Positions 2,354 through 16,367 of a DNA stretch of 64,000 nt are shown in pieces. The DNA is from Candidatus Aegiribacteria sp. MLS_C (lineage in GTDB: Bacteria > Fermentibacterota > Fermentibacteria > Fermentibacterales > JCC-6). The position numbers and the translations under genes are program-made. Below the pieces are notes generated by a model that worked only from the letters and a program-made list of their open reading frames with translations, searched no databases and was not told the origin of the DNA. The number at the start of each line of letters is the position of its first letter. The stretch's first letter is position 1. The stretch is taken from NCBI GenBank assembly GCA_002030045.1, contig LQBI01000024.1, positions 271,467-335,466 on the forward strand, in the 5' to 3' direction.

Positions 2354-3271
2354 TCAGTTCCCCCTGGCCGTGAGGACTCCGGCTTCCCTCAGGAAATCCA
2401 GGGCACGAATGATGCCAAGTCCCTCATCCGGATCAGGTCCTTCCGGAGGTGGGAGGCCCAGACGGGAATACTTGTCCCTCCATGACGAATGGTAGGGCAG
2501 AAGCTGCAGGTCCGGCATCAGCGGAAGTCCAAGAAGGAATTCCGCAACCAGCTGCAGGTTCCTTTCGGTATCGGTAATTCCTGGAATCACGGGCATTCTC
2601 AGTATGAATGCCGAGCCGCTTCCGGCCAGCAGGCGGATGTTGTCGAGCACCCTCGACGCATCCCCGCCGGTATAGTGCAGCATCTCCCCGTCGTCGACCA
2701 GCTTGATGTCACAGAGCATCAGGTCCGCCAGGCGTGACACCCTCATGAACACTTCCTCGGGCGCGCAGCAGGACGTATCCACCGCCGTGTGTATGCCCCT
2801 GTCCCTGCATTCGACCAGTATTTCCTCCAGGAAGTCGGCCTGCAGTAGAGGCTCCCCTCCCGAGAAGGTCACGCCCCCTCCTGAGGTTCCGTAGAACGGA
2901 ATATCCCTTTCGACCAGGTCCATCACTTCGGTCGGAGTGGCGTCCATGCCTGCGATCTCCCTTGCGGCAGCCGGGCAGCCTTCCACGCAGATGCCGCAGA
3001 GATCACACCTTTCCATGCATATCCTGGACGGATCCTTCGGATCTATGGCTCCGGATGGACAGACGGAAGCGCAGTTCCCGCACCCTATGCACCTGGAAGC
3101 CATGAACACCATCTGGGGAACTGAGAGAATACCCTCAGGGTTGTGACACCAGTGGCACGAAAGCGGGCAGCCCTTGAGGAAGACCGTGGTCCTGATCCCG
3201 GGACCGTCGTGTACGGAGTACCTCTTGAACTGGAAGACTCTAGCTTTCATCGAGCCGGTAGATTTCCTCAA
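2354..3271 (-). CDS. Glycyl radical enzyme activating protein (radical SAM)
   Basis: This 305-residue enzyme would use S-adenosylmethionine and a [4Fe-4S] cluster to install the glycyl radical on the adjacent enzyme. The radical-SAM cysteines are C35, C39 and C42 in GCPLSCHWCHNPE. A ferredoxin-like insert follows, with RCIGCGNCASVCP and RCDLCGICVEGCP, giving two extra [4Fe-4S] sites as in activases of the dehydratase class. A TSGGGVTFSGGEPLL motif is also present. The start is taken as TTG at 3271 because a perfect AGGAGG (3277-3282) sits five bases upstream. The ATG at 3250 has no comparable site. The gene lies between the hydrogenase maturation protease and the glycyl radical enzyme. Confidence 0.93.
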   Translation of the reverse strand: MRKSTGSMKARVFQFKRYSVHDGPGIRTTVFLKGCPLSCHWCHNPEGILSVPQMVFMASRCIGCGNCASVCPSGAIDPKDPSRICMERCDLCGICVEGCPAAAREIAGMDATPTEVMDLVERDIPFYGTSGGGVTFSGGEPLLQADFLEEILVECRDRGIHTAVDTSCCAPEEVFMRVSRLADLMLCDIKLVDDGEMLHYTGGDASRVLDNIRLLAGSGSAFILRMPVIPGITDTERNLQLVAEFLLGLPLMPDLQLLPYHSSWRDKYSRLGLPPPEGPDPDEGLGIIRALDFLREAGVLTARGN

Positions 3272-3276
3272 ATGAT

Positions 3277-3282
3277 CCTCCT
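3277..3282 (-). promoter_or_regulatory. Shine-Dalgarno site deciding a TTG start
   Basis: Minus-strand AGGAGG, five bases before TTG at 3271. It is the best match in the area and supports the TTG start of the activase over the ATG 21 bases further in. Confidence 0.7.
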
Positions 3283-3304
3283 GAACGAAGATTTAGAGGG
3301 AATA

Positions 3305-3850
3305 CTATTCGGAACTCTTCCCGGGCCTGGTCCTCTCCATGCGACAGAGCGAGGCGAGCCTTTCGGAAACTGTATCCAGCAGTCCCTCGAGCTTCGGTGA
3401 CAGCGGCGCTCCCAGATCGAGGCAGGCGGGTTGGACGGCCAGCAGGAAGACCTCCGCTCCTGTCTCCTGTCGTATCCTGTCCATGACTAGAGCGGGTGAG
3501 AGCGTGTGCGTAGTAAAACCCGTGCTTTCCAGGAGGTCCTGCCTGCGAAGGAGTTCCAGGGTTCCGATATCCCTGTCGAGGTGCACCGCGTCGATGATGA
3601 CCACCGTGTCCGGCTGCAACCTCGATACCTTTCCTATGTAGTTCTCCGGGACCGTACCGGCATCCACGGCATCAAGTCCGAAGCCCGCGAGCCTTTCCGC
3701 CAGACAGGGTCCGATACCGTCATCACCCCGGAGAACGTTGCCTACCCCCATGAAAACGATCCTGCCGCGCAGGGCATCGGTCAGCAGTTCCTCAAATTCC
3801 CCGGGGGGACCGCTTTCGGTTATCTGGTCCAATGTAACCGCTTCAGACAA
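3305..3850 (-). CDS. hycI: [NiFe] hydrogenase maturation protease (HycI/HyaD family)
   Basis: This 181-residue endopeptidase trims the C-terminal tail of a [NiFe] hydrogenase large subunit after nickel insertion. Visible motifs are VFMGVGNVLRGDDGIG, with the metal-binding Asp/Glu-type residue in the GDDG stretch, and DAVDAGTVPENY. The target is very probably the large subunit at 10337-11521, which carries a 35-residue tail after its last Cys motif. The gene is last in the hydrogenase cluster. The first 30 residues precede the family core, and the proposed TTG start at 3850 has only a weak ribosome site, so the true start may be further in. Confidence 0.88.
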   Translation of the reverse strand: MSEAVTLDQITESGPPGEFEELLTDALRGRIVFMGVGNVLRGDDGIGPCLAERLAGFGLDAVDAGTVPENYIGKVSRLQPDTVVIIDAVHLDRDIGTLELLRRQDLLESTGFTTHTLSPALVMDRIRQETGAEVFLLAVQPACLDLGAPLSPKLEGLLDTVSERLASLCRMERTRPGKSSE

Positions 3851-3926
3851 TTCCGCCTGCGGGGCACTGAATCACTGTGACCCGGACCCTGCTTCATCTT
3901 AAAAGGTGAAGATGGCTGTATCCGGC

Positions 3927-4541
3927 CTATTCCTCGTAGGTGGCGGTCTTGCGGCGGCATTCTGCGCAGAGGATCTTGACCCTGTCCGACCGGCCTTTGT
4001 CGGCGAGGACAGCCTGGATGTTGTCGTCCGCCAGTCCCAGTTCCCTGAGCCTGGTCAAGTAGAGCGTGGGATTCGAGAAGGAAAGCTCGCCAAGCTTCTC
4101 GGCGATCCAGATAAGATGATCCCTGGTGGCGATGACATCGCCGCATACCTCACAGAGCTGAAGCTCCTTCTCTATGGTTTCGAAGGCCTTGCTCCTGTCG
4201 AAGTAGGAGAGTTCCCACTTGTTGCCGAGGACTATGGCCTTGTCCCCCGGGTCCCTTATGCAGGAATCCTGGCAGACTCCGCAGAAAATGCAGTCGTCCG
4301 TGTAGTGGATCATGACCCTCATGGGGACATCACCATCCAGCCTGTCCTCGTGCGCGATGGCGCCAGAAGGACATGCCTCCTCGCATGCGAGACAGCCCAG
4401 GCATTTGTCCTGGTCGAACTCCGGCTGGCCCCGGAAGTTGGGGTGAGGAACGTGGGGTTCGGCGGGGAAACTAGATGTGTACGGCCCTTTTACGAGGGCC
4501 TTTATCGCTTCTGCAAGTTCTCTTACCTTTGGATACTTCAT
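3927..4541 (-). CDS. Group 4 hydrogenase ferredoxin subunit (NuoI/MbhN/HycF-like)
   Basis: This 204-residue polyferredoxin has two [4Fe-4S] motifs, KCLGCLACEEACPSGAI and DCIFCGVCQDSCI, matching the NuoI-type subunit that links soluble electron carriers to the hydrogenase small subunit. A C-terminal region adds two CxxC pairs (CEVCGDV and ILCAECRRK), which may form a zinc or iron site like the extension in HycF-type proteins. The ATG at 4541 has a GGATGGGA-type ribosome site. In this cluster the gene lies after the Mrp-type genes, apart from the other core subunits. Confidence 0.88.
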   Translation of the reverse strand: MKYPKVRELAEAIKALVKGPYTSSFPAEPHVPHPNFRGQPEFDQDKCLGCLACEEACPSGAIAHEDRLDGDVPMRVMIHYTDDCIFCGVCQDSCIRDPGDKAIVLGNKWELSYFDRSKAFETIEKELQLCEVCGDVIATRDHLIWIAEKLGELSFSNPTLYLTRLRELGLADDNIQAVLADKGRSDRVKILCAECRRKTATYEE

Positions 4542-4553
4542 ATTCCCATCCGC

Positions 4554-4895
4554 CTAGGCTTCGCCCTCTTTGTCCTCAGCGTAGCTGTCCACGACGCTCC
4601 TGTCCCACAGCTTTATACCCGCTCTGTGGGCTCCGCGGGAAACGGCATGGGCAGCAACCGGAGAGGCCAGGACGAGGAAAACGATGGCTATCAGAGCCTT
4701 GAAACCCGTTTCAGTGAAACCTCCGGAAACCAGGAAGGTACCGAATAGAATACCGCAGGTACCCAGGGTAACGCATTTTGTTGCCGCCTGAAGACGGTTG
4801 TAGACATCGGGCAGCCTGACCAGTCCAAGGCAGCCGAGAACGTCGAAACCGAGCCCCAGTCCAATGAAGATCATACCTATTGTATCAATCATCAA
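4554..4895 (-). CDS. mnhG: Mrp/Mnh-type antiporter subunit G (MbhC-like)
   Basis: This 113-residue membrane protein has three hydrophobic segments and the MnhG hallmark stretch LGLVRLPDVYNRLQAATK followed by a conserved glycine-rich helix. It belongs to the small-subunit set (E, F, G) of Na+/H+ antiporters and membrane-bound hydrogenases, which contributes to the ion-translocating module. It overlaps the end of mnhF by 11 bases, indicating translational coupling. Confidence 0.92.
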   Translation of the reverse strand: MMIDTIGMIFIGLGLGFDVLGCLGLVRLPDVYNRLQAATKCVTLGTCGILFGTFLVSGGFTETGFKALIAIVFLVLASPVAAHAVSRGAHRAGIKLWDRSVVDSYAEDKEGEA

Positions 4896-5256
4896 AGCTT
4901 CTTCCTTCCAGGTACTTGGAAAGCGCCAGCGTTCCGATGAAGCTCTGAAGTCCCCAGGCTATACCTATGTCTATATACCAGGAACGTCCGGTGGCGATGC
5001 TCAGCACCGCACACAGACCGACTATCAGTATTCCGAAGATGTCTATCGCAACTATCCTGTCCGCTGCAGTGGGGCCCCTCAGCACACGGAAGAGGACCAG
5101 GAGCGAGGAGAGTATCAGGATGTAGACGACCCTTCCCACGAATCCTATGTGCTCCGGGTTCTGCCGGAAGAAGATACTCCTGAAGGGAAGTACGATTATG
5201 AGGATTATCAGTCCCAGAAGCACCACTGCGCCGGCGATCCATCTGAGTCGTTTCAT
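4885..5256 (-). CDS. mnhF: Mrp/Mnh-type antiporter subunit F (MbhB-like)
   Basis: This 123-residue protein has three predicted transmembrane helices and the MnhF signature RVLRGPTAADRIVAIDIFG between helices 1 and 2. It is slightly longer than typical MnhF (about 90 residues) because of an N-terminal hydrophobic extension that may be a fourth helix. It overlaps mnhE by four bases and mnhG by eleven. Confidence 0.92.
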   Translation of the reverse strand: MKRLRWIAGAVVLLGLIILIIVLPFRSIFFRQNPEHIGFVGRVVYILILSSLLVLFRVLRGPTAADRIVAIDIFGILIVGLCAVLSIATGRSWYIDIGIAWGLQSFIGTLALSKYLEGRSFDD

Positions 5257-5792
5257 TGTTCTACCGCGTCTTCTTCGAATATCTTCCTGAGCATCGGTTC
5301 GAACCTGCTCCCTATCTCCCTGTAGGTGGTCTCCGGATCGGTCCCGACAACGTTGATCCAGTGGATGTAGAGAACTCCGTCGTCCCTGTTGATGTCAACG
5401 GTAAGGGTTCCAGGAGTGAGGGTTATCGAGTTGGCCAGGAAGGTCAGGCCGGTATCAGACCTGAGCCTGGTCCTGAGCCTGACTATGCCCGGTCTGATAG
5501 GCATTTCCGGATGTATGACCCTGTAGGCAACGTCGAAGTTGGCCTTGATGAGCTCCCATGCAAAGACCGGCACGTACCAGAACACGAAGTAGAATATCCG
5601 TATCGGATTGAAGAGCATGTGCGGCCTGGTCAGGAACATGGATCCCATCACCAGCGCCACCACCATCGACACCGCAGCTCCCGCTATGAGATGCTGTATG
5701 TCCGGTACCCATGTCAGTATGCACCAGACAACGAAGGAGAAGATGAACATCAGTCCTCTGCTCTTCATGTCACATCCCTCCATTTTCGGCAA
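5253..5792 (-). CDS. mnhE: Mrp/Mnh-type antiporter subunit E (MbhA-like)
   Basis: This 179-residue membrane protein fits the MnhE family. It has N-terminal hydrophobic helices, then PGIVRLRTRLRSDTGLTFLA and NSITLTPGTLTVDI, the conserved cytoplasmic core of the family. Its start overlaps the 3' end of the 499-residue antiporter subunit by 23 bases. It belongs to the ion-translocating arm of the hydrogenase complex. Confidence 0.92.
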   Translation of the reverse strand: MPKMEGCDMKSRGLMFIFSFVVWCILTWVPDIQHLIAGAAVSMVVALVMGSMFLTRPHMLFNPIRIFYFVFWYVPVFAWELIKANFDVAYRVIHPEMPIRPGIVRLRTRLRSDTGLTFLANSITLTPGTLTVDINRDDGVLYIHWINVVGTDPETTYREIGSRFEPMLRKIFEEDAVEQ

Positions 5793-7269
5793 GCACCCTC
5801 ACCGCAGGCGATAACAGCACGTCCCTGACCTGGGGTACCAGCAGCAGGCCGCCGAATATGCACATGAGGGCCAGGATTATCAGCGGTATCCGCATCAGGG
5901 CGGGCACTTCCCTGATGTCCCTGAACTTCTCCCTCAACTCCCCGAGGAACGCGAAACGGGTTACCTTCAGGACGTAGGCGATGGTCACGATGCTCATCAG
6001 GACTGCCCATGCCGCCAGCTTCATGTGATGGGCCTGTACAGCGGCCACTATAATGACGAGCTTGCTCCAGAAACCGGCGAAGGGGGGTATTCCGGCAAGG
6101 GACATGGCCCCGGCAAGCGTGGATCCGCTGGTCACGGGCATCTTCCTGGCGAGACCGCCCATCTCCTTCATGTTCCTGGTCCCGGTGGCGTATTCGACCG
6201 CTCCCGAATCCAGGAACAGCAGCGACTTGAACATCGAATGGTTGAACAGGTGGAAAAGGGCTCCCATGATACCGAGAGGGGTCCCTATTCCGAAGCCCAG
6301 CATGATGTATCCAACCTGGCTTATGGAACTGTACGCGAGAAGACGCTTCATATCCCACTGCCGAAGGGCGACCAGCGCTCCCACTCCCATGGATATCGCC
6401 GCCAGGACCAGCAGGATGATCGAAACCTGGCGGGGAAACCCGAATACGGTGATGAAAACCCGTGCTATGGCGTAAACCCCGAGTGCCTTGATAAGGACTC
6501 CCGAGAGCATGGCGGAGATCGGTGCGGGGGCTGATGGGTGGGCATCAGGCAGCCAGGCATGGAACGGCACAATCGCCGCCTTGAGCCCGAATCCGGCCAG
6601 GAACAGACCGAAGACGAGGTATATCAGCGCCGGCTGGACGGACCATTCAGACAGGACGGTTTTCATGTCCCCCATGTTGAGCGTACCCGTGGCGCTGTAG
6701 AGGAAGATGATACCGAGGAGGATCAGCAGGGAGGCGACCCCTCCCATCACGGCGTACTTGAATGACGCCTCCAGCTCCCTCTTGCCCGTACCGAAGCCTA
6801 CCAGGGCATAGCTAGCTATGGAGGCGACCTCCACGAAGACGAAGAGGTTGAACATGTCTCCCGTCACCAGTACGCCGTTCATTCCGGCCAGCATAAGCAG
6901 GAACAGGGTGTGGAACTGCCACTTGTCCGTGTAGCGGGTCATGTAACTTACGGAGTAGACCGCCACCAGGAAGGCTACGAAGTTGACTATGAGCAGCATG
7001 AAGATGGTGAAACCGTCCACCACCATCTGTATGCCGACGATCCTTCCCATCACCTCCTGGAATCCGCCCCAGTTGCCCACGTTGAGCACCAGCACGGTCC
7101 TTTCCGCCTGCATCCTTACGAGAAAGAAGACGGAGAGGACGAAACCGGAAAAGGATGACATCACTCCAAGGATGTCGGGAATACCCCTGACCCTCTTCAG
7201 AAGGGCGGTAAGGAATGCGCCGGCCAGTGGGACGGCAACAAAGAGAGGTACTATGCTTTCACTGATCAT
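5770..7269 (-). CDS. mnhD: Antiporter-like subunit D (MnhD/MbhH, ND4/ND5 family)
   Basis: This 499-residue polytopic protein (about 14 helices) belongs to the proton-conducting membrane transporter family. It has the central lysine motif GLKAAIVPFHAWLPDAHPSA, which holds the TM7-equivalent Lys and the HAWLPDAH loop, and a second Lys near LIKALGVYAIARV. RLLAYSSISQVGYIMLG is also typical. These residues line the half-channels of ion-pumping subunits in Mrp antiporters, MBH and complex I. It is one of two such large subunits in the cluster; the other is at 8649-10340. Confidence 0.93.
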   Translation of the reverse strand: MISESIVPLFVAVPLAGAFLTALLKRVRGIPDILGVMSSFSGFVLSVFFLVRMQAERTVLVLNVGNWGGFQEVMGRIVGIQMVVDGFTIFMLLIVNFVAFLVAVYSVSYMTRYTDKWQFHTLFLLMLAGMNGVLVTGDMFNLFVFVEVASIASYALVGFGTGKRELEASFKYAVMGGVASLLILLGIIFLYSATGTLNMGDMKTVLSEWSVQPALIYLVFGLFLAGFGLKAAIVPFHAWLPDAHPSAPAPISAMLSGVLIKALGVYAIARVFITVFGFPRQVSIILLVLAAISMGVGALVALRQWDMKRLLAYSSISQVGYIMLGFGIGTPLGIMGALFHLFNHSMFKSLLFLDSGAVEYATGTRNMKEMGGLARKMPVTSGSTLAGAMSLAGIPPFAGFWSKLVIIVAAVQAHHMKLAAWAVLMSIVTIAYVLKVTRFAFLGELREKFRDIREVPALMRIPLIILALMCIFGGLLLVPQVRDVLLSPAVRVLAENGGM

Positions 7270-7285
7270 AATGCTATAAACCCCG

Positions 7286-7639
7286 TCATCCTCTTAATTC
7301 CCGCATCCTGGTTATGTCGAAGGTCCCGTACTTCCCGTAGAGCCTGATGGCCAGAGCTATCATGAATGCGGTGGTTGCCAGTCCGATGACTATCGACGTC
7401 AGCACCAGGGCATGGGGGAGCGGGTCCACCATGGACTGGGGAGCTATATGCTCGGTGGTCGAGAAGATGGCCGCCCTCCCTCCGGCCTTGTAGGCCACCA
7501 GGATGAGGAACAGGTTGACCGCGTACTCGGCTATCACGACACCCAGTATTATCTTGATGATGTTCCTCTTGGAGAGGACCGCATAGATACCGATGCAGAA
7601 CAGTATCAGGCAGAGTATGTACGGCATGTGCGCGTTCAT
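7286..7639 (-). CDS. mnhC: Mrp/Mnh-type antiporter subunit C (NuoK-like, MbhG)
   Basis: This 117-residue protein has three transmembrane helices and the NuoK/MnhC pattern, with KIILGVVIAEYAVNLFLILV carrying the buried glutamate of helix 2. DPLPHALVLTSIVIGLATTA is the typical MnhC helix 3. It overlaps mnhB by four bases and lies 16 bases before mnhD. Confidence 0.94.
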   Translation of the reverse strand: MNAHMPYILCLILFCIGIYAVLSKRNIIKIILGVVIAEYAVNLFLILVAYKAGGRAAIFSTTEHIAPQSMVDPLPHALVLTSIVIGLATTAFMIALAIRLYGKYGTFDITRMRELRG

Positions 7640-8094
7640 TGCTTACTCTCCGATTCGAACTTCTGCAGCACTATGAGAGTGAGGAAGATACCGAAGAGGC
7701 CGGCGCCCACCTTCAGGCTGATGGCGATGTTCTCCAGCGGGATGATGCCAGCACTGACCAGCCCACCGGGCTCACCGTCGGGATGAAGGAAGTTGTCGAA
7801 GAACCCTCCGTACTGCAGACCGATAAGGGCGAGGGCCAGGAACATCAAGGCGCCCAGCGCTTCCACTACCCCTGTGCTCTCCTTCGAGAATATCCCTGCG
7901 GAAACCTTTCCGCCGAATGCAAGGTCAAGGTTGATGAACGAAAGGGCGATTATGACCCCTCCGGCGAACCCTCCGCCGGGAGTGAGGTGTCCATGCAGTA
8001 TGATGTATATTCCGTATAGGAATATCAGGCCGACGGTCAGTCTGGTGACCGTCTTGACGATCAGGGACATTCCGTGCTCGTGTTCTTTACTCAT
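7636..8094 (-). CDS. mnhB: Mrp/Mnh-type antiporter subunit B (MbhF-like)
   Basis: This 152-residue protein has four predicted helices and the MnhB motif ILHGHLTPGGGFAGGVIIA near the N terminus. It matches the separate MnhB/MbhF subunit rather than the fused MnhA C-terminus. It overlaps the upstream MbhD/E-like gene by eight bases and mnhC by four. Confidence 0.93.
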   Translation of the reverse strand: MSKEHEHGMSLIVKTVTRLTVGLIFLYGIYIILHGHLTPGGGFAGGVIIALSFINLDLAFGGKVSAGIFSKESTGVVEALGALMFLALALIGLQYGGFFDNFLHPDGEPGGLVSAGIIPLENIAISLKVGAGLFGIFLTLIVLQKFESESKQ

Positions 8095-8635
8095 GGTTCT
8101 CCTGTAGATCTTCCTCTTTTGTCCTGCCCCTGCTTCTCATGACCGTTAGCACTCCTACGACCGCGGTGAAGAGCACCGTGGCCTCTCCGAGTGTGTCGTA
8201 AGCCCTGTAGTCGAGTATGACGGATGTCACCACGTTCGTGGCTCCCGTGCCGGCAACTGCGTTCAGGGGATAGAACTCGGAAACCGTCATGAGAGGCTCA
8301 CCGAAGGGATTGAGCCCTCCGTCGAAGGTCAGTATGCCCGCGACAACGGCCAAACCGAGGAACAGCACTGCCATGAAACCTCCGAAGGGCCTGCTGCTGC
8401 AGGGTTTCGTCGCGATGTCCCTGTGAAGGGTCGCCCTGATAAGCAGGATGACCGCGGCTATTTCGACCACTATCTGCGTTATCGCCACGTCCGGGGCCTT
8501 CAGGAGTAGGAAGATGATGGAAAGCCCAAGGCCGACTATGCCCACCGCCACGACGGCGGAAAGAAGATTCCTGACCTCTATCGCAATTATCGCTCCGGCG
8601 ATCATCAGCCCCAGAAGCACGTATAGTTCTATCAT
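8087..8635 (-). CDS. MbhD/MbhE-like subunit (DUF4040 plus MnhA C-terminal region)
   Basis: This 182-residue membrane protein resembles a fusion of archaeal MbhD and MbhE, equivalent to the C-terminal part of MrpA. The first half, with LLLKAPDVAITQIVVEIAAV, is the DUF4040 signature. The second half (SVILDYRAYDTLGEATVLFTA) is the MbhE/MrpA-tail signature. In MBH these subunits sit between the antiporter module and the hydrogenase membrane arm. It starts 13 bases after the large NuoL-like gene. Confidence 0.88.
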   Translation of the reverse strand: MIELYVLLGLMIAGAIIAIEVRNLLSAVVAVGIVGLGLSIIFLLLKAPDVAITQIVVEIAAVILLIRATLHRDIATKPCSSRPFGGFMAVLFLGLAVVAGILTFDGGLNPFGEPLMTVSEFYPLNAVAGTGATNVVTSVILDYRAYDTLGEATVLFTAVVGVLTVMRSRGRTKEEDLQENHE

Positions 8636-8648
8636 ATTCCTAACCCAA

Positions 8649-10340
8649 TCAGATCAGAACGATGCACAGCACCGCCAGGCCTATCACGAACCAAAGGAGG
8701 TACCTGGACAGTATACCGTTGTGCATGAAGGAGAAAACGATCCCGAAACCGGCCGCTATCTTCTGCAGGACCTCGTAGAGGTCGAACAGCTTCTTCTCCG
8801 CCAGCCGGTATATGACCTTCAGGATGCCGATTTCCCTTATCGTCCTGTAGAAGTCCACTCCCGAGACCCTCATGTCCGGGTTCTTCTCCAGGGTTTCCCC
8901 TCCGATGAAAGGTGCCACGATCCTGGCTTTTCTGATGGAGCCCGAGAGGTATATGAGGTATCCTATCACCAGACCTGCCAGCAGCACCAGTGTCGCCGGT
9001 CCCGACTGCCATATGCCCGGCATGTGGAGCTCTCCTCCGACGCCGGGTCTGAAGTAATCGGCGAAGGGGATCTTCCATGCGATCACGCCGAGGCCGATGC
9101 AGAGAAGTGAAAGGACGGCCAGTGGAAGGATCGTGAAGAAGCCGGTCTTCTCCCTGCTTTCGATCACCTCCCTTGATATCTGCGAGGGCTGCCCGAGGAA
9201 GACGCTGTGCACGAGTTTCATGAAACTCGCCAGTGTGAGGGCGCTACCCAGCATGGCGGCTACCAGCCACACCACCCACAGAGTACCTCCTCCGGATATC
9301 ACTCCCTGGTACAGCATCCATTTTGATGCGAAACCGTTGAAGGGCGGTACTCCGGATATGGAGAGCGAGGCTATCAGGAACGCGGCGAACACCATGGGCA
9401 TGGCCTTCACGAGACCGCCAAGCCTGGCAAGGTCGGAGGTACCCGTCCTTCTCTCAACCTCCCCGCCGGCCAGGAACAGGCTGGACTTGTATATGGTGTT
9501 GTTGAACATGTGGAACAGCGCACCCGCGATGCCCACCGGGTTCCCGGTCCCGATGCCCAGTACCATGTAACCGACCTGGCTCACGGCGTGGTAACCGAGG
9601 AGGCGCTTGAGATCGTGCTGGACCAGCGCCATCATCACCGCCGCCATGATCGTTACGCTTCCCAGCGCCATGAGTACGGTGTTCATGGCAGGCGTCATCA
9701 CGAAAACCTCGAGGGTCACCCTGGCCAGGAAGTAGATCCCCAGCAGCTTGTCGAGGGATGCCGGAAGGAATGCGGTTACCGGAACAGGTGCATCCCTTGC
9801 GGTATCCGGAAGCCATGTATGGAACGGCATCGCCCCTGCCTTCGCGAAGGCCGCGGACGCCAGGCACAGATAGGCTATTACCGAACCGGTGGTGTCGAGC
9901 TGGATGCCCATTCCGGCGAAGGGAAGCCTGAGGAAGCCGGGCAGTCCGGTGGAACCGTACCTGATGCTCCAGATAAGTACTATCCCCAGAAGCAGAAGCA
10001 CGTCTGTTCCACCTATGATGGCAAGCGACTTCCTGGCTGACTCGGGAGTGCCCTCCTCCCTGCCGAATCCGATGAGGAGATAGAGCATGAGACCCAGGAA
10101 TCCCCACAGTACAAGGAGCAGAAGGAAGTTGGCCGAGAACAGGATCCCGAGGGTGGCCAGGAAGGTGGCCAGGATGTAGATGTAATACCTCCAGAGACCC
10201 TTCCTCCCGCTCATGTGCCTGAAGGAGTACACAACCGTGAATACGAAGAACATTGCGGCGAAAACGGCGCAGACAACTGACAGAGGGGTGCTTGCGAAGT
10301 AGCCGCCGGGGTTCTTCAGAGCATCGATCAGGTACTTCAT
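8649..10340 (-). CDS. NuoL/HycC-family antiporter-like subunit
   Basis: This 563-residue polytopic protein is a second ND5-type subunit. It has AKAGAMPFHTWLPDTA with the conserved helix 7 lysine, SLDKLLGIYFLARV, and RLLGYHAVSQVGYMVLG. The C-terminal 130 residues carry a loop with FIGGETLEKNPDM and a last membrane anchor, resembling HyfB/EchA-type extensions more than MnhD. With mnhD it would give the complex two large antiporter-like subunits. It overlaps the large hydrogenase gene by four bases. Confidence 0.92.
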   Translation of the reverse strand: MKYLIDALKNPGGYFASTPLSVVCAVFAAMFFVFTVVYSFRHMSGRKGLWRYYIYILATFLATLGILFSANFLLLLVLWGFLGLMLYLLIGFGREEGTPESARKSLAIIGGTDVLLLLGIVLIWSIRYGSTGLPGFLRLPFAGMGIQLDTTGSVIAYLCLASAAFAKAGAMPFHTWLPDTARDAPVPVTAFLPASLDKLLGIYFLARVTLEVFVMTPAMNTVLMALGSVTIMAAVMMALVQHDLKRLLGYHAVSQVGYMVLGIGTGNPVGIAGALFHMFNNTIYKSSLFLAGGEVERRTGTSDLARLGGLVKAMPMVFAAFLIASLSISGVPPFNGFASKWMLYQGVISGGGTLWVVWLVAAMLGSALTLASFMKLVHSVFLGQPSQISREVIESREKTGFFTILPLAVLSLLCIGLGVIAWKIPFADYFRPGVGGELHMPGIWQSGPATLVLLAGLVIGYLIYLSGSIRKARIVAPFIGGETLEKNPDMRVSGVDFYRTIREIGILKVIYRLAEKKLFDLYEVLQKIAAGFGIVFSFMHNGILSRYLLWFVIGLAVLCIVLI

Positions 10341-11521
10341 CTGACCCCCATCCTCCGTTTTATCCTATCGGTCTTCTCCCTGCTGAGCTGGATGAGGTCC
10401 TTGCCGCCGTAGAGAATCCTGCCCCCCGTGTCCTTGACCGCTATCCTCTCGGTGCAGCAGTAGCATGGATCAATGGCGGCCAGGATTATCGTGGCATCGG
10501 ATATGGTCTCACCCTGTACCGTAGCCTTGTAAGTGGGGAGGTTCATGAAGGTCGGAGCCCTCACCTTGTGCCTGACCGGCCTGTTGGTCCCGTCGCTCTT
10601 GACGTAGTGGAAGGTCTCGCCCCTGGGGGCCTCTATATGGCCTATGCCTTCGCCCGGAGGGACGTCCTTGATGTTGGCGTCTATCTCTCCTCCGGGAAGA
10701 TGCTCGAGGCAGAACCTCATGATCTTCGCGGACTCGAACATCTCCAGGATCCTCACCACTGCCTTGTCGAAAACGTCACCGTTGCTGGTGACGATCATGT
10801 CCCACTCCATCTCCTGGTAGGCACCGTAGGGCGAATCCTTCCTCACGTCACGGGCGACACCGGAAGCCCGGGAGGTGGGACCAAGGGCGCTGAAATCTAT
10901 GGCTTCCTGGTAGGTCATCACGCCCACCCCCTTGAGCCTGGCGTGCAGCACCGGATCGTCAAGGACAGCTTTCTTCAGCATGTCCAGCGTGGGCAGGATG
11001 GATTCGATCTTCCTGATACATATGGGGATGTCCTCCGGCTTGATATCCCTTCTGACCCCCCCGGGCTTGAACATGGCGTAGTTGTTCCTGTTGCCGGACA
11101 GGATCTCCATCACGTCGAGGATCTCCTCCCTCAGCTTCCAGGCCCACATGTAAACCGTGTTGTAGCCCAGGAAATGCCCGGCCAGACCCAGCCAGAGCAG
11201 ATGGGAATGGATCCGCTCGCCCTCGGCGATGATGGTTCTGATGTACTTGGCGCGAATGGGCACTTCCATGGGGAAGACGTCCTCGACCGCCCTGGTATAC
11301 GCGAAGGGATGGCTTGTGGAACAGATGCCGCATATCCTCTCGACGACGAACGTGCTGTTCTCGAATGTCTTCATCTCGGAGAGCTTCTCGATGCCCCTGT
11401 GGTTGTATCCTATTCGGACGTCTATGTCGACGACGGTCTCACCCTCGACCGTCAGGGTGAAGAGCTCGGGTTCCTCCTGAAGAGGATGGTACGGGCCGAT
11501 GGGAATTATCGTCCTGCCCAT
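10337..11521 (-). CDS. Group 4 membrane [NiFe] hydrogenase large subunit
   Basis: This 394-residue catalytic subunit keeps all four nickel ligands: C64 and C67 in RICGICSTSH, and C353 and C356 in DPCYCCTER. This separates it from NuoD and from Mbx/Mbs-type subunits, which lack them. A 35-residue tail follows the arginine of the second motif, as expected for a precursor cut by the HycI-type protease in the same cluster. The start ATG at 11521 follows the NuoC-like stop by one base and has GGGGAG six bases upstream. An open frame extends further upstream without homology. The reaction is H2 oxidation or proton reduction at the membrane. Confidence 0.95.
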   Translation of the reverse strand: MGRTIIPIGPYHPLQEEPELFTLTVEGETVVDIDVRIGYNHRGIEKLSEMKTFENSTFVVERICGICSTSHPFAYTRAVEDVFPMEVPIRAKYIRTIIAEGERIHSHLLWLGLAGHFLGYNTVYMWAWKLREEILDVMEILSGNRNNYAMFKPGGVRRDIKPEDIPICIRKIESILPTLDMLKKAVLDDPVLHARLKGVGVMTYQEAIDFSALGPTSRASGVARDVRKDSPYGAYQEMEWDMIVTSNGDVFDKAVVRILEMFESAKIMRFCLEHLPGGEIDANIKDVPPGEGIGHIEAPRGETFHYVKSDGTNRPVRHKVRAPTFMNLPTYKATVQGETISDATIILAAIDPCYCCTERIAVKDTGGRILYGGKDLIQLSREKTDRIKRRMGVR

Positions 11522-11522
11522 G

Positions 11523-11996
11523 TCAGACTCCCCTTGTCCTGTCGGCCTTCTCGTCCCACTCCTCATAGTCCTGACGGAGCGGATAGACACCTTCCGGCCA
11601 GTTGTCCGCCAGGAGCAGTCTCCTGGGGTCGGGATGACCGGTGAAGGTGATCCCGAGAAGTTCGCTCATCTCCCTCTCGATCCAGTTGAGGGCCTCGATG
11701 TCCTTTCCCAGCGAATCCATTACCGGATGCTCCCTGTCGATCAGCACCCTCAGAGAGATGAGGAGGTTTATGTCCTCGACGATGAAATGGTAGAGGATCT
11801 CGATGTTGGGCGGCATGTCGGTCCCGGACGCTATGTTGAACCTTGCGCCCAGGTTCCTGAACAGGTACGTTCCGATCCTTACCATCGATTCCGGCCTTAC
11901 GGTGATGTAGACCCTGGAATGCGACTTGTCGTAGAGGTCCAGTATATCCTCGTGGAAACGGCTTGTGAAATCCAGAAGTACTTCTTCTCTTGTCAT
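11523..11996 (-). CDS. NuoC-like 30 kDa subunit (MbhK / HycE N-terminal type)
   Basis: This 157-residue protein matches the NADH dehydrogenase 30-kDa subunit family. The fingerprint lies in ALNWIEREMSELLGITFTGH followed by DPRRLLLADNWPEGVYPLR. In group 4 hydrogenases it forms the peripheral arm with the large subunit. It overlaps the NuoB-like gene by four bases. Confidence 0.94.
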   Translation of the reverse strand: MTREEVLLDFTSRFHEDILDLYDKSHSRVYITVRPESMVRIGTYLFRNLGARFNIASGTDMPPNIEILYHFIVEDINLLISLRVLIDREHPVMDSLGKDIEALNWIEREMSELLGITFTGHPDPRRLLLADNWPEGVYPLRQDYEEWDEKADRTRGV

Positions 11997-12418
11997 TGGG
12001 AGCCGCCCACCCTTTCGATAAGTTTCACGACGCCGGCAATTATCGCTTCGGGCTTTGGAGGACAGCCGGGAATGTAGACATCCACCGGAATTATCTGGTC
12101 AAGGGGCTGCGGGCAATTGTAACTGTCCTTGAAGATCCCCCTGGACGCCGCGCAGGTGCCTATGGCGACCACGAGACAGGGTTTTGGAACCTGTTCCCAC
12201 AGGGCCTTCAATCTCTCCACCGACATCCTGTTGCCGGAACCGGTTACCAGCAGTACGTCCGCATGCTTGATGCTCCCCGCAAGCAGCATGCCGAACCTTT
12301 CTATGTCGAACCTGGGGGTAAGACAGTCCAGCGTCTCGATATCGCAGTTGTTGCAGCTTCCCGTCGAGAGGTGGAAGACCCAGGGGGATTTCAGGAGCGC
12401 TTTAAGCTTCAGGCTCAT
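11993..12418 (-). CDS. Hydrogenase small subunit (NuoB/MbhJ/EchC-like)
   Basis: This 141-residue Fe-S subunit carries the four ligands of the proximal [4Fe-4S] cluster: Cys in STGSCNNCDIE, Cys in IGTCAASRG and Cys in YIPGCPPKPE. It is short, as in MbhJ and EchC, without the extra clusters of soluble hydrogenases. It passes electrons between the ferredoxin subunit and the nickel site. Confidence 0.95.
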   Translation of the reverse strand: MSLKLKALLKSPWVFHLSTGSCNNCDIETLDCLTPRFDIERFGMLLAGSIKHADVLLVTGSGNRMSVERLKALWEQVPKPCLVVAIGTCAASRGIFKDSYNCPQPLDQIIPVDVYIPGCPPKPEAIIAGVVKLIERVGGSQ

Positions 12419-12438
12419 GACGGTGCAGCCTTACCCTT

Positions 12439-13350
12439 CTATATGCCATTCAACGCCAGCACGACGGCGGCTGTTGCCAGGACCGTCATCGGTCCCCAGA
12501 AGAACCTGACGGCCTGGTCGATACGGACCCTGGGATTCGTGTTGCGTATAACCGTTATCAGGGCTACGATCCCGACGTATTCCAATAAGGTCCAGAGGAT
12601 GTTGATCCCGTTCAGACGCATTCCACCGAAGAACAGGATGATCAGGAAGAAAGGAAGCGTGAACAGGAGCATGTTCTTCATCAGCCTGAAGACTGCCAGG
12701 CCCGGTCCGGAGTATTCCACCAGCGGCCCTTCCACTATCTCGGTCTCGGCCTCCGGTATGTCGAAGGGGACCAGGGCCAGTTTGGCCTGGACGCACAGCA
12801 GCGCGACTATCAGTGCGATTATACCTGACAGGTGGCCGGCAGTTATGCCGTCTGACTGATTCTCTATTATTCCACTGATGCTCAGGTCTCCCGCCCATAT
12901 CACAGGTACCAGAGTAGCAAGGATGAACGGAAGCTCGTAGGCCATCACCAGCTTCATCTCCCTGGAGGCGCCCAGGCTCGCCAGCGGGTTCCTCGAGGCG
13001 AAGCCCCCCAGTATGATGCTCAGGGAAGGTACAGTGAGCAGGTAGATGGCAACGATCCAGTCACCCATGAAGCCGCCTTCGAAGAACTGGTTGACCCAGA
13101 AAAGAGTTGCCGCCGCCACGACTCCGGCGAGACCTATGACCGGTGCCATCAGGAAGGTCCCCCTGGATGCCCCCGCGGGGATTACCGTCTCCTTTCCAAG
13201 CAGCTTGACGATATCAATGAAGGGCTGAAGGAACGGGGGGCCGACCCTGTACTGCACTCTGGCGGTAACCTTCCTGTCGATCCAGCTGGTGACCAGGCCC
13301 AGGGCCGCGGTGGCTGCGAAACCGAACACGATGAGGTATACGAAAGTCAT
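12439..13350 (-). CDS. NuoH-like membrane anchor subunit (MbhM/EchB/HycD)
   Basis: This 303-residue polytopic protein has ARVQYRVGPPFLQPFIDIVK, the NuoH/HycD cytoplasmic loop, and LVPFDIPEAETEIVEGPLVE, the acidic loop next to the quinone-site equivalent. The start is ATG at 13350 (MTFVYLIVFGF), which overlaps the preceding ferredoxin gene by four bases (ATGA). A longer open frame reaches 13791, but its extra residues are out-of-frame ferredoxin sequence. Confidence 0.94.
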   Translation of the reverse strand: MTFVYLIVFGFAATAALGLVTSWIDRKVTARVQYRVGPPFLQPFIDIVKLLGKETVIPAGASRGTFLMAPVIGLAGVVAAATLFWVNQFFEGGFMGDWIVAIYLLTVPSLSIILGGFASRNPLASLGASREMKLVMAYELPFILATLVPVIWAGDLSISGIIENQSDGITAGHLSGIIALIVALLCVQAKLALVPFDIPEAETEIVEGPLVEYSGPGLAVFRLMKNMLLFTLPFFLIILFFGGMRLNGINILWTLLEYVGIVALITVIRNTNPRVRIDQAVRFFWGPMTVLATAAVVLALNGI

Positions 13351-13889
13351 GCCCTGCTCCTGTCCCAGTGGGTCGAGTGGACCACGAGCCGGTTGCCCAG
13401 ATGGAAGATGTTCTCTCCCTCCATGTCCTCGTCGGCGAGCGCCAGGGCTCCGTAGGGACAGGTGGGGATGCAGGTGTAGTCTCCGCGGTCCTGGCAGTAG
13501 TCGCATATGTTGGACATCCTGGGAAGTATCTCGGGGTATATCGTACCGTAGGGGCAGGCGTGGGAACAGGACCTGCACGCCACGCATCTGACCGTGTGCC
13601 TCACCAGGGTTCCGTCCTCCTTCTTCTCCAGGGCATCCTTCGGACAGGCGTTGACGCAATGAGGTTCCTCGCACTGTCTGCATACGAGGGCGTAGGTGGC
13701 CAGCTCGATGAGAGAGATGACCCCGTTGTTCCAGGGATGGTAGAAGTAGCTGCACTTGATAACGCATTCCTCGCACACCTCTGAACTGCATATGTCCAGA
13801 TCAATGAACAGCTTCTTTCCGCTCTCCTTCTTCCCCACTGCGTCGATGTCGCCGTGAAGCTGGTCGATGGTGGTCCTGTTCATTTCCAT
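13347..13889 (-). CDS. HycB/CooF-like polyferredoxin
   Basis: This 180-residue electron-transfer protein has several cysteine clusters: CSSEVCEECVIKC, CRQCEEPHCVNACP, CVACRSCSHACPYG and CDYCQDRGDYTCIPTCPYG. This is the four-cluster architecture of HycB/CooF/DmsB-type subunits. It lies between the flavin subunit and the membrane anchor, so it probably wires the NAD(P)H module to the hydrogenase core. Confidence 0.88.
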   Translation of the reverse strand: MEMNRTTIDQLHGDIDAVGKKESGKKLFIDLDICSSEVCEECVIKCSYFYHPWNNGVISLIELATYALVCRQCEEPHCVNACPKDALEKKEDGTLVRHTVRCVACRSCSHACPYGTIYPEILPRMSNICDYCQDRGDYTCIPTCPYGALALADEDMEGENIFHLGNRLVVHSTHWDRSRA

Positions 13890-13896
13890 GGCAGCC

Positions 13897-14712
13897 CTAT
13901 TCCCAGATGCCGGGATAATCCCGGATCATGTCGTACGTGAAGACCGGTCCGTCCTTGCAGCAGTAGTAGGGGCCAATCCTGCAGTGTCCGCACTTGCCGA
14001 AACCGCAGGACATGTTCTTCTCCATCGAGAGATAAATGTTCCTGTCCTTGATCCCGAGTTCCTGAAGCTTGAAAGTGGCGAACTTCATCATTATGGGTGG
14101 GCCGCAGACGATAGCCCTGGCTCTCGAGAAATCCACGTCGATGTCGTTCATTATGGTCGTCACGACTCCCACCGGGCCGTTCCAGGTATCGTCGCACTGG
14201 TCGACGGTGAGTTTCATGTCGAGGTCCTTACGGTCCATCCAGCTCTCCAGTTCCTTTCTGTAGAGCATCTCTTCGGGATTCCTGCAGCCTCCCCTGTAGA
14301 CCAGCTTCGATATCTGGTCCCTCATATTGAAAAGACCGTACATGAGCGTTCTTATCGGCGCCAGGCCGACGCCTCCGCCTACGACCACGATATCCTGACC
14401 GATGAACTTCGTAAGAGGGTAGCCCTTGCCGAGGGGACCCCTGAGACCCACTGTGTCACCGGGTTCCAGTTCGTGTATCGCATCGGTCACTCTGCCCACC
14501 CTGACTATGGTTATCTCCATGGTCTCGGTGTTCTGTGAATCCGAAGAGGGAGTGAACGGGGCCTCACCTACTCCCGGGACCGAGAACTCCATGAACTGTC
14601 CGGGTTTGAATGCTATCTTTTCTTTGGGCTTGAGAAGGAAAGTTTTGATGGTGGGCGTCTCTGTGGTAACTTTAAGGACCTCGGTTTCGATGGAACTGTA
14701 CGGATTCTTCAT
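13897..14712 (-). CDS. FAD/NAD(P)-binding oxidoreductase (sulfhydrogenase gamma / AsrB-like)
   Basis: This 271-residue ferredoxin reductase-like protein has an N-terminal FAD-binding barrel (FKPGQFMEFSVPGVGEAPF), a nucleotide-binding region (DIVVVGGGVGLAPIRTLMYG) and a C-terminal [2Fe-2S] site in CGFGKCGHCRIGPYYCC. This layout is that of HydG, the gamma subunit of archaeal sulfhydrogenases, and AsrB, which exchange electrons with NADPH or NADH. It is one base from its partner at 14713. The cofactor preference cannot be read here. Confidence 0.9.
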   Translation of the reverse strand: MKNPYSSIETEVLKVTTETPTIKTFLLKPKEKIAFKPGQFMEFSVPGVGEAPFTPSSDSQNTETMEITIVRVGRVTDAIHELEPGDTVGLRGPLGKGYPLTKFIGQDIVVVGGGVGLAPIRTLMYGLFNMRDQISKLVYRGGCRNPEEMLYRKELESWMDRKDLDMKLTVDQCDDTWNGPVGVVTTIMNDIDVDFSRARAIVCGPPIMMKFATFKLQELGIKDRNIYLSMEKNMSCGFGKCGHCRIGPYYCCKDGPVFTYDMIRDYPGIWE

Positions 14713-15735
14713 CTATACTTCCAGTCTTGCCAGGACTTCCCTGATGTCGATCTTCCCGGGACAGGCGGCAATGCATCTCCCGCAACCGGTGCAGGCTATC
14801 TCGCTGGCCACTTCAGGGAAGTAGTTGAACTTCTTGTCGAACCTGTTTCGCAGCCTCATCCAAAGCCTGTCCCTGGGATTCTCGCCGCCCGCAACCCTGG
14901 CGAAGTCATTTATCATGCATGAATCCCATACCCTGTACCGAGCAAGCCTTCCGTCAGCCTTCTGATCGTAGAGCAGGAAGCAGTGGCAGGTGGGACATAT
15001 GGTATTGCATGCGCCACACTCGACGCAGTCCCTGGAAGAATCCTTCCAGAGATCGGCCTCCTCGTAATTCTTCTGCATCACTCTCTTGAGCCTGTCGACC
15101 GAGGGTATCTGCTTCTCCTTGGCGTTCTTCGCTACCCGCTTCCTTATATCGTTCCTGTTCTTCTTCGCTGAATCGGCCAGTGCCTTGTCCTCTGTCTCAC
15201 CGAACATGTCCGAATGGCTCTCGACCAGTTTCCTCCCCTTCTCGCTTCCAACGGCCACGATGAAGCCGCCTTCCACGGGGGAAAGGTTGAGGTCAAACTC
15301 GGCCTCGGGCCACGGGTTCAGGTCAAGCGCGGTACAGAAACAGGTATCGCCGACTCCTGTGCAGTCGGCGGATATGATGAGCCCTTCTTTCCTGTGCCTC
15401 ATGTAGGTGGGGTCTCCGTACTCCTCGTCCATGAAGACGAAATCCAGGATCCTGAAACCCTTAAGGTCGCAGGCTTTCGCCCCGACTATGCAGGGCGGCT
15501 TGTCCTCATGCGGTACACGGGGGCTGAAACCCTCGGCCACCTTCTCCCTCCCCAGGAAGAAGAACGACTTCAGAGGATCGAAGGACCTTATCTCACCGAT
15601 GACGTAATCGGTATCGCCCTCCCGGAGCAGGGAATACCCCGTTCCCTTCCCCATGACCCTGGGAACGTATACGCGATAATCCGCCCTGAGGGATTCCAGA
15701 AGACGATCGAGATCGATTCGTTTTAGAAAAATCAT
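14713..15735 (-). CDS. Fe-S subunit (sulfhydrogenase beta / AsrA-like)
   Basis: This 340-residue protein matches the HydB/AsrA family. The N-terminal domain contains GAKACDLKGFRILDFVF and a middle cysteine stretch (DCTGVGDTCFCT). The C-terminal part holds two [4Fe-4S] motifs, DCVECGACNTICPTCHC and CTGCGRCIAACPGKID. The start ATG at 15735 is chosen because homology begins there (MIFLKRIDLDRLL). An open frame reaches 15936 but carries no family sequence. It is the first gene of the hydrogenase cluster and follows a 610-base noncoding region. A TTGACA sits at 15765-15770, close enough that the mRNA might be nearly leaderless. Confidence 0.88.
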   Translation of the reverse strand: MIFLKRIDLDRLLESLRADYRVYVPRVMGKGTGYSLLREGDTDYVIGEIRSFDPLKSFFFLGREKVAEGFSPRVPHEDKPPCIVGAKACDLKGFRILDFVFMDEEYGDPTYMRHRKEGLIISADCTGVGDTCFCTALDLNPWPEAEFDLNLSPVEGGFIVAVGSEKGRKLVESHSDMFGETEDKALADSAKKNRNDIRKRVAKNAKEKQIPSVDRLKRVMQKNYEEADLWKDSSRDCVECGACNTICPTCHCFLLYDQKADGRLARYRVWDSCMINDFARVAGGENPRDRLWMRLRNRFDKKFNYFPEVASEIACTGCGRCIAACPGKIDIREVLARLEV

Positions 15736-16345
15736 GGCAATGAAATAGACCGCGTGAAGACCTTTGTCAAGGGGCCTTCCAGACGTCATTTGATGGGTAT
15801 TCACGTCGTTTTTCATGACCCTGGGAGCCAACCTGATAACATGTTCCGGAATGTCGCGTCCGGCCCCTTCAGTATTATTTCCAGGCGTTTCGGGAAAAAT
15901 CCGGGCTTGCTGCACTGGAATGGTGCCGTCTGTCAAATTCGAGATGACCTGGTCCCGGTCTTTTTTAGTGAATCCCGAGGCCGCACGTATTCGGACCGGG
16001 ACCGGTAACGAGCTTAATGGAACAGAAGGTATTCACTCATGAGAGACATGGTTTGCTGAGCCGATCTGTCATTCATCCCTGCCATTCTCATGACAGTGAC
16101 CGTCATGGGGAACTGATACGGGGAGTATCCTCCCAGGATAGCGTGGTCCCCGGTGGAGCAGGTCCTGCCGGTCTCCCTGGAAGACAGCCTTGTTTTGTGG
16201 CGTGAGCACGGGGGGCAGCATCAACCTGGCCAGGGGGAAGACCTCCTCTCCCGCCTTCTATCCGGATGGAAGTCATGCCGTGTCCCATCCTGGTGCCGGG
16301 CCTGGAAAAAGGGACATTCCCGGATTGAGATTCCTTGATGATGTC
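15736..16345. other. 610-base intergenic region upstream of the hydrogenase cluster
   Basis: I see no convincing gene here. It holds the presumed hydrogenase promoter (TTGACA candidates on the minus strand at 15765-15770 and 15931-15936, both without a good -10 box), a 10-base inverted repeat at 15951-16003, a short CATGAC/GTCATG dyad at 16089-16107, and the outer arm of a 19-base inverted repeat at 16291-16309. It also contains whatever ends the upstream lytic transglycosylase operon. Confidence 0.6.
15951..16003. repeat. 10-base perfect inverted repeat
   Basis: GGTCCCGGTC at 15951-15960 is the exact reverse complement of GACCGGGACC at 15994-16003, with a 33-base spacer that begins with six T on the plus strand. 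It could be an RNA stem or a protein-binding dyad. Confidence 0.6.
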
Positions 16346-16367
16346 TCATTTTCCAGGCCCGGCACCA
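16291..16367. repeat. 19-base perfect inverted repeat at the end of slt
   Basis: TGGTGCCGGGCCTGGAAAA at 16291-16309 is the exact reverse complement of 16349-16367. The right arm is the last six codons of the lytic transglycosylase gene; the left arm lies 39 bases further on, past the stop. The mRNA could form a 19-bp stem with a 39-base loop. No U tract follows, so it is not a classical terminator. Confidence 0.85.

Follow-up and report, generated by a model that had tools for sequence, protein, structure and literature searches.

Group 4g of the [NiFe] hydrogenases is listed in HydDB as being of "unknown function" (PMC5037454). Mrp-linked enzymes of Omnitrophota and group 4 enzymes of Hydrogenedentota have been filed in this group, and ferredoxin is assumed wherever the papers state a donor (PMC8542988, PMC10066038, PMC11406978). 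In 2019, asrA, asrB, cooF, Mrp-like genes and a molybdopterin protein were reported beside a group 4 hydrogenase of Saganbacteria RX5A; the region was termed enigmatic, a function like that of membrane-bound hydrogenase (MBH) was supposed, and its nearest relatives were placed in Zixibacteria and Omnitrophica (PMC6349859). Here we analyze a comparable locus of Candidatus Aegiribacteria sp. MLS_C (Fermentibacterota), in a window of 64,000 nucleotides of contig LQBI01000024.1. On its minus strand, from 15735 to 3305, 17 genes encode a group 4 [NiFe] hydrogenase with Mrp-type subunits, headed by AsrA- and AsrB-like proteins. We predict, with a probability of roughly 60%, that the product is a reversible, ion-translocating NAD(P)H:H+ oxidoreductase. 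Because the flavin module is always present, a large, uncharacterized hydrogenase lineage found in many uncultured bacterial phyla may pass electrons between NAD(P)H and H2, and not deal with ferredoxin alone. No prior survey of the AsrAB linkage, and no proposal of NAD(P)H coupling for this class, was found in the literature, subscription journals being outside our search.

Linkage was assessed in 111 unique loci with a large subunit of at least 53% identity, 67 of which had at least 6 kb of upstream sequence. AsrA, AsrB and a ferredoxin-like gene (Fd) were upstream of the group 4 core, on the same strand, in all 67, which come from at least 13 named phyla, so the arrangement is more than a fusion confined to this locus; a chance neighborhood is ruled out by this conservation, and the co-occurrence for which the initial annotation had proposed a search was thus found. 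The orthologous AsrB and the large subunit occurred together in 60 relatives, and the three mismatches (G006, G009 and G014) were contig ends. The HydB/HydG-like genes could have been conserved in genomes lacking the hydrogenase, an outcome named beforehand as fatal to the idea, but this is not the case for the orthologous pair; paralogous AsrAB pairs serve other enzymes. AsrA and AsrB have diverged in parallel with the large subunit: pairwise distances correlated with those of the large subunit at r values of 0.88 (AsrA), 0.83 (AsrB) and 0.87 (HycB), compared with 0.89 for NuoB and 0.67 for MrpD. Judged from gene order, the association of AsrAB with this hydrogenase is ancient and fixed across phyla.

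Rearranged loci indicate where the module belongs. In two Spirochaetota loci (L071 and L072), the operon is split into an AsrA-AsrB-Fd-B-C-large-I block and an H-D2-DE-Mrp block, and in L076 the recognizable Mrp genes are on the opposite strand. AsrA-AsrB-Fd always remained with the soluble-arm genes in these loci; therefore, this unit belongs with the soluble arm. This behavior, and co-evolution with the hydrogenase, are difficult to reconcile with the view that AsrAB shares the operon by happenstance and forms an independent soluble arm for sulfite or polysulfide reduction, even though both proteins are recognized by anaerobic sulfite reductase models and enzymes of the type of Pyrococcus furiosus soluble hydrogenase I (SHI) are able to reduce sulfur (PMC5037454). 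In addition, a search for AsrC that covered the operon found no such gene, beside AsrAB or elsewhere in it. We consider such an arm very improbable.

A scan of GTDB genomes yielded at least 573 confirmed relatives, the best 80 of which were kept. Phyla named among the relatives include Omnitrophota, Fermentibacterota, Spirochaetota, Elusimicrobiota, Nitrospirota, Nitrospinota, Actinomycetota, Hydrogenedentota, Bacillota, Fibrobacterota, Planctomycetota, Auribacterota, Latescibacterota, Margulisiibacteriota and Thermodesulfobacteriota; because these names are labels of metagenome bins, a few of which may be misassigned, we speak of at least 13 phyla. In a bacteria-wide sample of 385 genomes, large-subunit identities were either at least 53% or at most 48%, with nothing between, and of the roughly 343 genomes from other phyla than that of the host, some 35 fell into the higher group. 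The operon lineage is real, ancient and widespread. We give even odds to the broader prediction that this 4g-type lineage is, in at least 13 mostly uncultured phyla, a site at which the NAD(P)H pool, H2 and the membrane ion gradient are directly coupled and ferredoxin is not obligatory.

The predicted input arm begins with an AsrA/HydB-like iron-sulfur subunit of 340 aa (14713..15735; this and all other genes of the operon are on the minus strand). It scored 125-153 bits with ShyB/HydB/AsrA models, under their equivalog cut-offs, and aligned to the beta subunit of P. furiosus SHI (9nez_B, E 2.8e-40). The next gene (13897..14712) encodes an AsrB/HydG-like protein of 271 aa predicted to carry FAD, NAD(P) and [2Fe-2S], which scored 223 bits with the AsrB model and 186 with HydG and matched SHI gamma (9nez_C, E 2.2e-54). 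Its AlphaFold (AF2) model had a mean pLDDT of 91.6, and the best fold match was NADPH-bound SHI gamma (9nf0_C, template modeling (TM) score 0.92), with dihydroorotate dehydrogenase B and NqrF ranking behind. Residue conservation was examined in up to 110 aligned relatives (78 for AsrA). Fifteen Cys residues of AsrA were invariant and aligned with Cys residues of SHI beta, and the four [2Fe-2S] Cys residues of AsrB were invariant as well. Residue 144 of AsrB was always basic (R or K) and aligned to an Arg in SHI gamma, although it is not diagnostic of NADP versus NAD. Group 3b enzymes, which have homologous subunits, are NADP-coupled (PMC5037454), a further point in favor of our prediction. NAD(P)H coupling of the hydrogenase is thus predicted from the AsrB fold and conserved ligands, and these, together with the fixed linkage, lend support to the NAD(P)H-linked, ion-pumping hydrogenase that the initial annotation had envisaged.

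The AsrB fold is also common to the small subunit of NfnI (5jca_S, TM score 0.73), and FAD plus many clusters would be expected if the enzyme were electron-confurcating, co-oxidizing ferredoxin and NAD(P)H at the flavin to make H2 with ion pumping. However, a single flavin site is predicted here, and the bifurcating flavin of Nfn sits in another subunit, which has no counterpart in this operon. Bifurcation is not known from SHI, whose gamma subunit is nearest to AsrB in fold, and the host encodes another hydrogenase, of FeFe type, next to a NuoF-like gene. Confurcation therefore appears highly improbable. Thermococcus Fdh3B was dropped as a candidate analogue; because it had been modeled on Nfn and ascribed a GXGXXG motif, we did not count it among AsrB homologues.

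Phylogenetic analysis of AsrB separated three groups. The 32 operon sequences formed one clade (100/99), group 3b gammas including SHI a separate one (97/97), and sequences from HycE-like hydrogenases a third (100/100), which joined other paralogues. Because these clades are separate, the module was not recently borrowed from sulfhydrogenase, and there were two or more unions of AsrAB with group 4 hydrogenases. A recent origin of the module in a soluble sulfhydrogenase is also ruled out by a Planctomycetales-labeled bin (L117) with two distinct AsrAB sets, in which a group 3b cluster with its own AsrAB (410-4958) lies immediately upstream of the operon (5030-17117). The proposal that an MBH had borrowed the beta and gamma subunits of sulfhydrogenase was accordingly abandoned, given the position of AsrB outside the HydG clade, the age of the association and the grouping of the large subunit with HycE relatives (subject to the MBH alternative discussed below). 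The host genome had a single AsrA match and therefore contains no sulfhydrogenase-type pair besides that of the operon.

Five loci (L158, L159, L160, L162 and L167) belong to a second, HycE-like hydrogenase lineage. As in the window, a group 4 core is preceded by asrA-asrB, but gene order differs (a protease gene and antiporter-like genes follow), the small Mrp set is missing and AsrB comes from another clade; on the AsrB tree, this is a second, independent association. The group 4 large subunits of L159, L160 and L170 contain an in-frame TGA exactly at the second Cys of the L1 CGIC motif, possibly a selenocysteine at an unusual position.

The hydrogenase core is complex I-like. Its large subunit (10337..11521), of NuoD/MbhL/HycE type, has the NiFe motifs L1 (RICGIC, residues 62-67) and L2 (DPCYCCTER, 351-359), and the four ligand Cys residues were invariant in 110 relatives, which agrees with the catalytically intact group 4 core noted at the outset. 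Both this subunit and the NuoB/MbhJ-like small subunit (11993..12418; Oxidored_q6, four invariant Cys residues) are of NuoD/NuoB type and not of the HydA/HydD type of group 3b. A tail of 35 residues beyond the L2 motif, together with the adjacent HycI-type maturation protease (3305..3832; PF01750, TIGR00142 at 101 bits), would fit the usual C-terminal maturation. The core also includes a NuoC/MbhK-like subunit (11523..11996; Complex1_30kDa) and a NuoH/MbhM-like membrane subunit (12439..13359; NADHdh, E 1.1e-68).

Two iron-sulfur proteins could connect this core with AsrAB. The HycB/CooF-like ferredoxin subunit (13347..13883) was recognized by Fer4_11, its Cys pattern and similarity to HycB3/HycB4 of hydrogen-dependent CO2 reductase (PDB 7qv7); the window sequence has 16 Cys residues, enough for four [4Fe-4S] clusters, and 14 of them were at least 92% conserved. 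The NuoI/HycF-like subunit (3927..4541), whose best model was PRK12387, the iron-sulfur subunit of formate hydrogenlyase, has eight invariant Cys residues for two [4Fe-4S] clusters and four additional invariant ones toward the C-terminus (130, 133, 192 and 195), arranged as CxxC pairs, which suggests an additional metal site. We propose one membrane complex, in which a flavin-containing NAD(P)H module serves as the electron-input arm of a complex I-like [NiFe] hydrogenase. NAD(P)H would donate electrons to the FAD of AsrB, from which they would pass to its [2Fe-2S] cluster, the AsrA clusters, the HycB-like polyferredoxin, the NuoI-like subunit, the cluster of NuoB and finally the NiFe site. 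About a dozen clusters would lie between FAD and the NiFe site, a continuous candidate path.

By way of NuoH and the pair of antiporter-like subunits, the reaction would be coupled to translocation of H+ or Na+ through the Mrp-type arm. This arm consists of an MbhD/MbhE-like fusion corresponding to the MrpA C-terminus (8087..8635; PF13244, PF20501), MrpB/MnhB-like (7636..8094; PF04039), MrpC/NuoK-like (7286..7639; PF00420), MrpD/MbhH-like (5770..7269; 6cfw_H, E 3.2e-87), MrpE-like (5253..5768; PF01899), MrpF-like (4885..5256; PF04066) and MrpG-like (4554..4892; PF03334) proteins and a second antiporter-like subunit (8649..10340; Proton_antipo_M, matching 6cfw_H and 6u8y_X). In MrpD, the Glu of transmembrane helix 5 (Glu147) was kept in 73 of 73 relatives. 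In the second antiporter-like subunit, transmembrane helices 1 and 2 are missing but the lysines are retained; at the helix 5 Glu position it has Gly, as do 81 of 93 relatives, and these losses may alter one ion path. The description of a full Mrp-type set therefore stands in the sense of a split MBH, as long as this second subunit is recognized as shortened and usually lacking the helix 5 Glu. Downstream sequence of 9 kb or more was available for 68 loci, and in 62 of these it contained five or six of the six small Mrp genes. The exceptions include three loci (L063, L078 and L150) that have the soluble arm with AsrAB and no recognizable small Mrp genes downstream; their membrane arm may be elsewhere or divergent.

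In a large-subunit tree built without group 4b and 4c reference sequences, the operon lineage formed one clade (100/99). Its sister was E. coli HycE with HycE-like enzymes (100/97), and P. furiosus MBH fell outside (join 99/98). A single clade of the operon lineage and MBH was not rejected by the approximately unbiased (AU) test (p 0.128) and HycE is a long branch, so the lineage may be akin to archaeal MBH; the tree called for in the initial annotation thus gave a distinct clade nearest HycE relatives and left the MBH grouping standing. The lineage probably belongs to HydDB group 4g, an assignment that rests on how the Omnitrophota and Hydrogenedentota enzymes were classified in the literature; both phyla carry close relatives of the window large subunit.

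The proximity to HycE, the HycB- and HycF-like subunits and the molybdopterin-domain protein encoded between asrB and Fd in four loci (L026, L140, L147 and L148) would agree with a formate hydrogenlyase-like enzyme, with formate dehydrogenase encoded elsewhere and AsrAB as an NAD(P)+ outlet. Most loci, including that of the window, have no molybdopterin gene, however. The operon contains no formate dehydrogenase, and no catalytic subunit of this enzyme was evident in the host genome, where the sole molybdopterin hit was weak and located in a 1224-aa frame; a formate dehydrogenase donor in the host is therefore unsupported. We regard a formate-driven enzyme as highly unlikely.

Energetic considerations limit the direction of the reaction. 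The potential of H2 is -414 mV, that of NADP -320 mV (about -370 mV in cells) and that of ferredoxin near -500 mV. Transfer from NAD(P)H (about -320 mV) to H2 is thus uphill under standard conditions, so ion pumping from NAD(P)H would be feasible only at low H2. When H2 is very scarce, oxidation of NADPH could yield H2 with roughly one ion pumped per H2, a stoichiometry that could be sustained only around 1 to 10 Pa H2. At higher H2, either H2 would drive NAD(P)+ reduction with pumping, or the ion gradient would push NAD(P)H electrons onto protons. The complex, its path, its use of NAD(P)H, direction and ion are all predictions, and the donor could be NADPH or NADH. Several points, besides the uphill step, weigh against NAD(P)H coupling: the evidence for this clade is genomic, co-transcription is predicted from gene spacing, AsrAB can serve other partners such as the AsrC sulfite reductase, other donors may enter at the molybdopterin-like insert, and the HycB- and NuoI-like subunits could take ferredoxin too, as in MBH.

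The last point leads to a ferredoxin-coupled, MBH-like hydrogenase, in which reduced ferredoxin would enter at HycB or NuoI, most electrons would go to H2 with ion pumping, and AsrAB would be a side branch bleeding some to NAD(P)+, which would make the complex a ferredoxin:NAD(P)+/H+ hub. Strict fixation of AsrAB exceeds the needs of an optional branch, and the host already encodes an Rnf complex for ferredoxin:NAD+. To our knowledge, ferredoxin-coupled 4d enzymes have no flavin subunits. On the other hand, the polyferredoxins are encoded, the tree test did not reject common descent with MBH, archaeal MBH of group 4d has ferredoxin as its established donor (PMC5037454), and ferredoxin is assumed in published annotations of 4g enzymes of Omnitrophota and Cloacimonadota (PMC8542988). 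We consider this alternative unlikely and retain NAD(P)H:H+ oxidoreduction as the preferred prediction.

All 17 open reading frames and their families were confirmed from the open reading frame list, Pfam and NCBIfam, with the coordinates first assigned and with AsrA-, AsrB- and HycB-like genes leading. The order is AsrA, AsrB, HycB/CooF-like, NuoH, NuoB, NuoC, NuoD-type large subunit, antiporter-like, MbhD/E fusion, MrpB, MrpC, MrpD, MrpE, MrpF, MrpG, NuoI/HycF-like and HycI. Probable start sites were revised for asrA (15735), hycI (3832 or 3850, TTG) and mrpE (5768). Intergenic gaps are -13 to +20 bp from asrA through the NuoI-like gene and 94 bp before hycI, and this spacing suggests a single operon. 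Promoter and terminator scans gave results no better than shuffles, and Rfam and tRNA scans gave zero matches. In two other loci (L083 and L106), the operon is interrupted by PhoU-domain proteins. Directly downstream in the window are a glycyl radical enzyme resembling trans-4-hydroxy-L-proline dehydratase (1-2346, minus strand; 1078 bits, cut-off 1100), which extends past the window end, and its activase (2354-3271, minus strand); this neighborhood is not conserved in other genus members. The host genome also encodes two Vhu/Mvh-like [NiFe] hydrogenases and a Mrp-first, Ehr/Mbx-like complex (L043, C7:18000-36000) whose large subunit had no nickel hydrogenase family match.

In metabolic models of Omnitrophota, Cloacimonadota and similar phyla, the Mrp-linked 4g hydrogenase figures as a ferredoxin-driven H2 producer. 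If the fixed AsrAB arm makes the enzyme NAD(P)H-linked, its direction and energy yield would depend on H2 pressure, and the predicted makers and consumers of H2 in anoxic sediments, groundwater and digesters would change. The uncharacterized class also gains a specific, simple assay.

Compared with known systems, the operon combines features found apart. Archaeal MBH (P. furiosus, 6cfw, group 4d) shares the core subunits, MbhD/E, MrpB-G and an intact MrpD/MbhH, and hence a Mrp-type membrane arm; unlike the operon, it has no AsrA, AsrB or HycB-like subunit, one antiporter-like subunit, and Mrp genes first. This difference from the order of core, Mrp, NuoI-like gene and protease had been correctly noted, and a Mrp-first, MBH-like locus does occur in a more distant relative (L161). 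P. furiosus SHI (9nez/9nf0, group 3b) has homologous beta (AsrA-like) and gamma (AsrB-like) input subunits, but is soluble, with other large and small subunits and a gamma in a separate clade. E. coli formate hydrogenlyase (7z0s, group 4a) has a soluble arm of HycB, HycF, HycG and HycE type and the nearest large-subunit clade, with formate dehydrogenase in place of AsrAB and without a Mrp set. The Saganbacteria RX5A region also brings together group 4 [NiFe] subunits, Mrp-like subunits, cooF, asrA and asrB; it differs from the window in an extra unclassified molybdopterin oxidoreductase, a feature in which the four loci with a molybdopterin insert resemble it. Whether the arrangement was already described thus has a divided answer: it was reported once, in that one genome, as enigmatic and with neither a survey nor a name (PMC6349859), and group 4g is listed with its function unknown (PMC5037454). 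The HydDB definition of group 4g includes no flavin module, whereas this operon has AsrAB. The operon is a member of a known, uncharacterized hydrogenase class; what is new, and testable, is the invariant input arm of NAD(P)H type.

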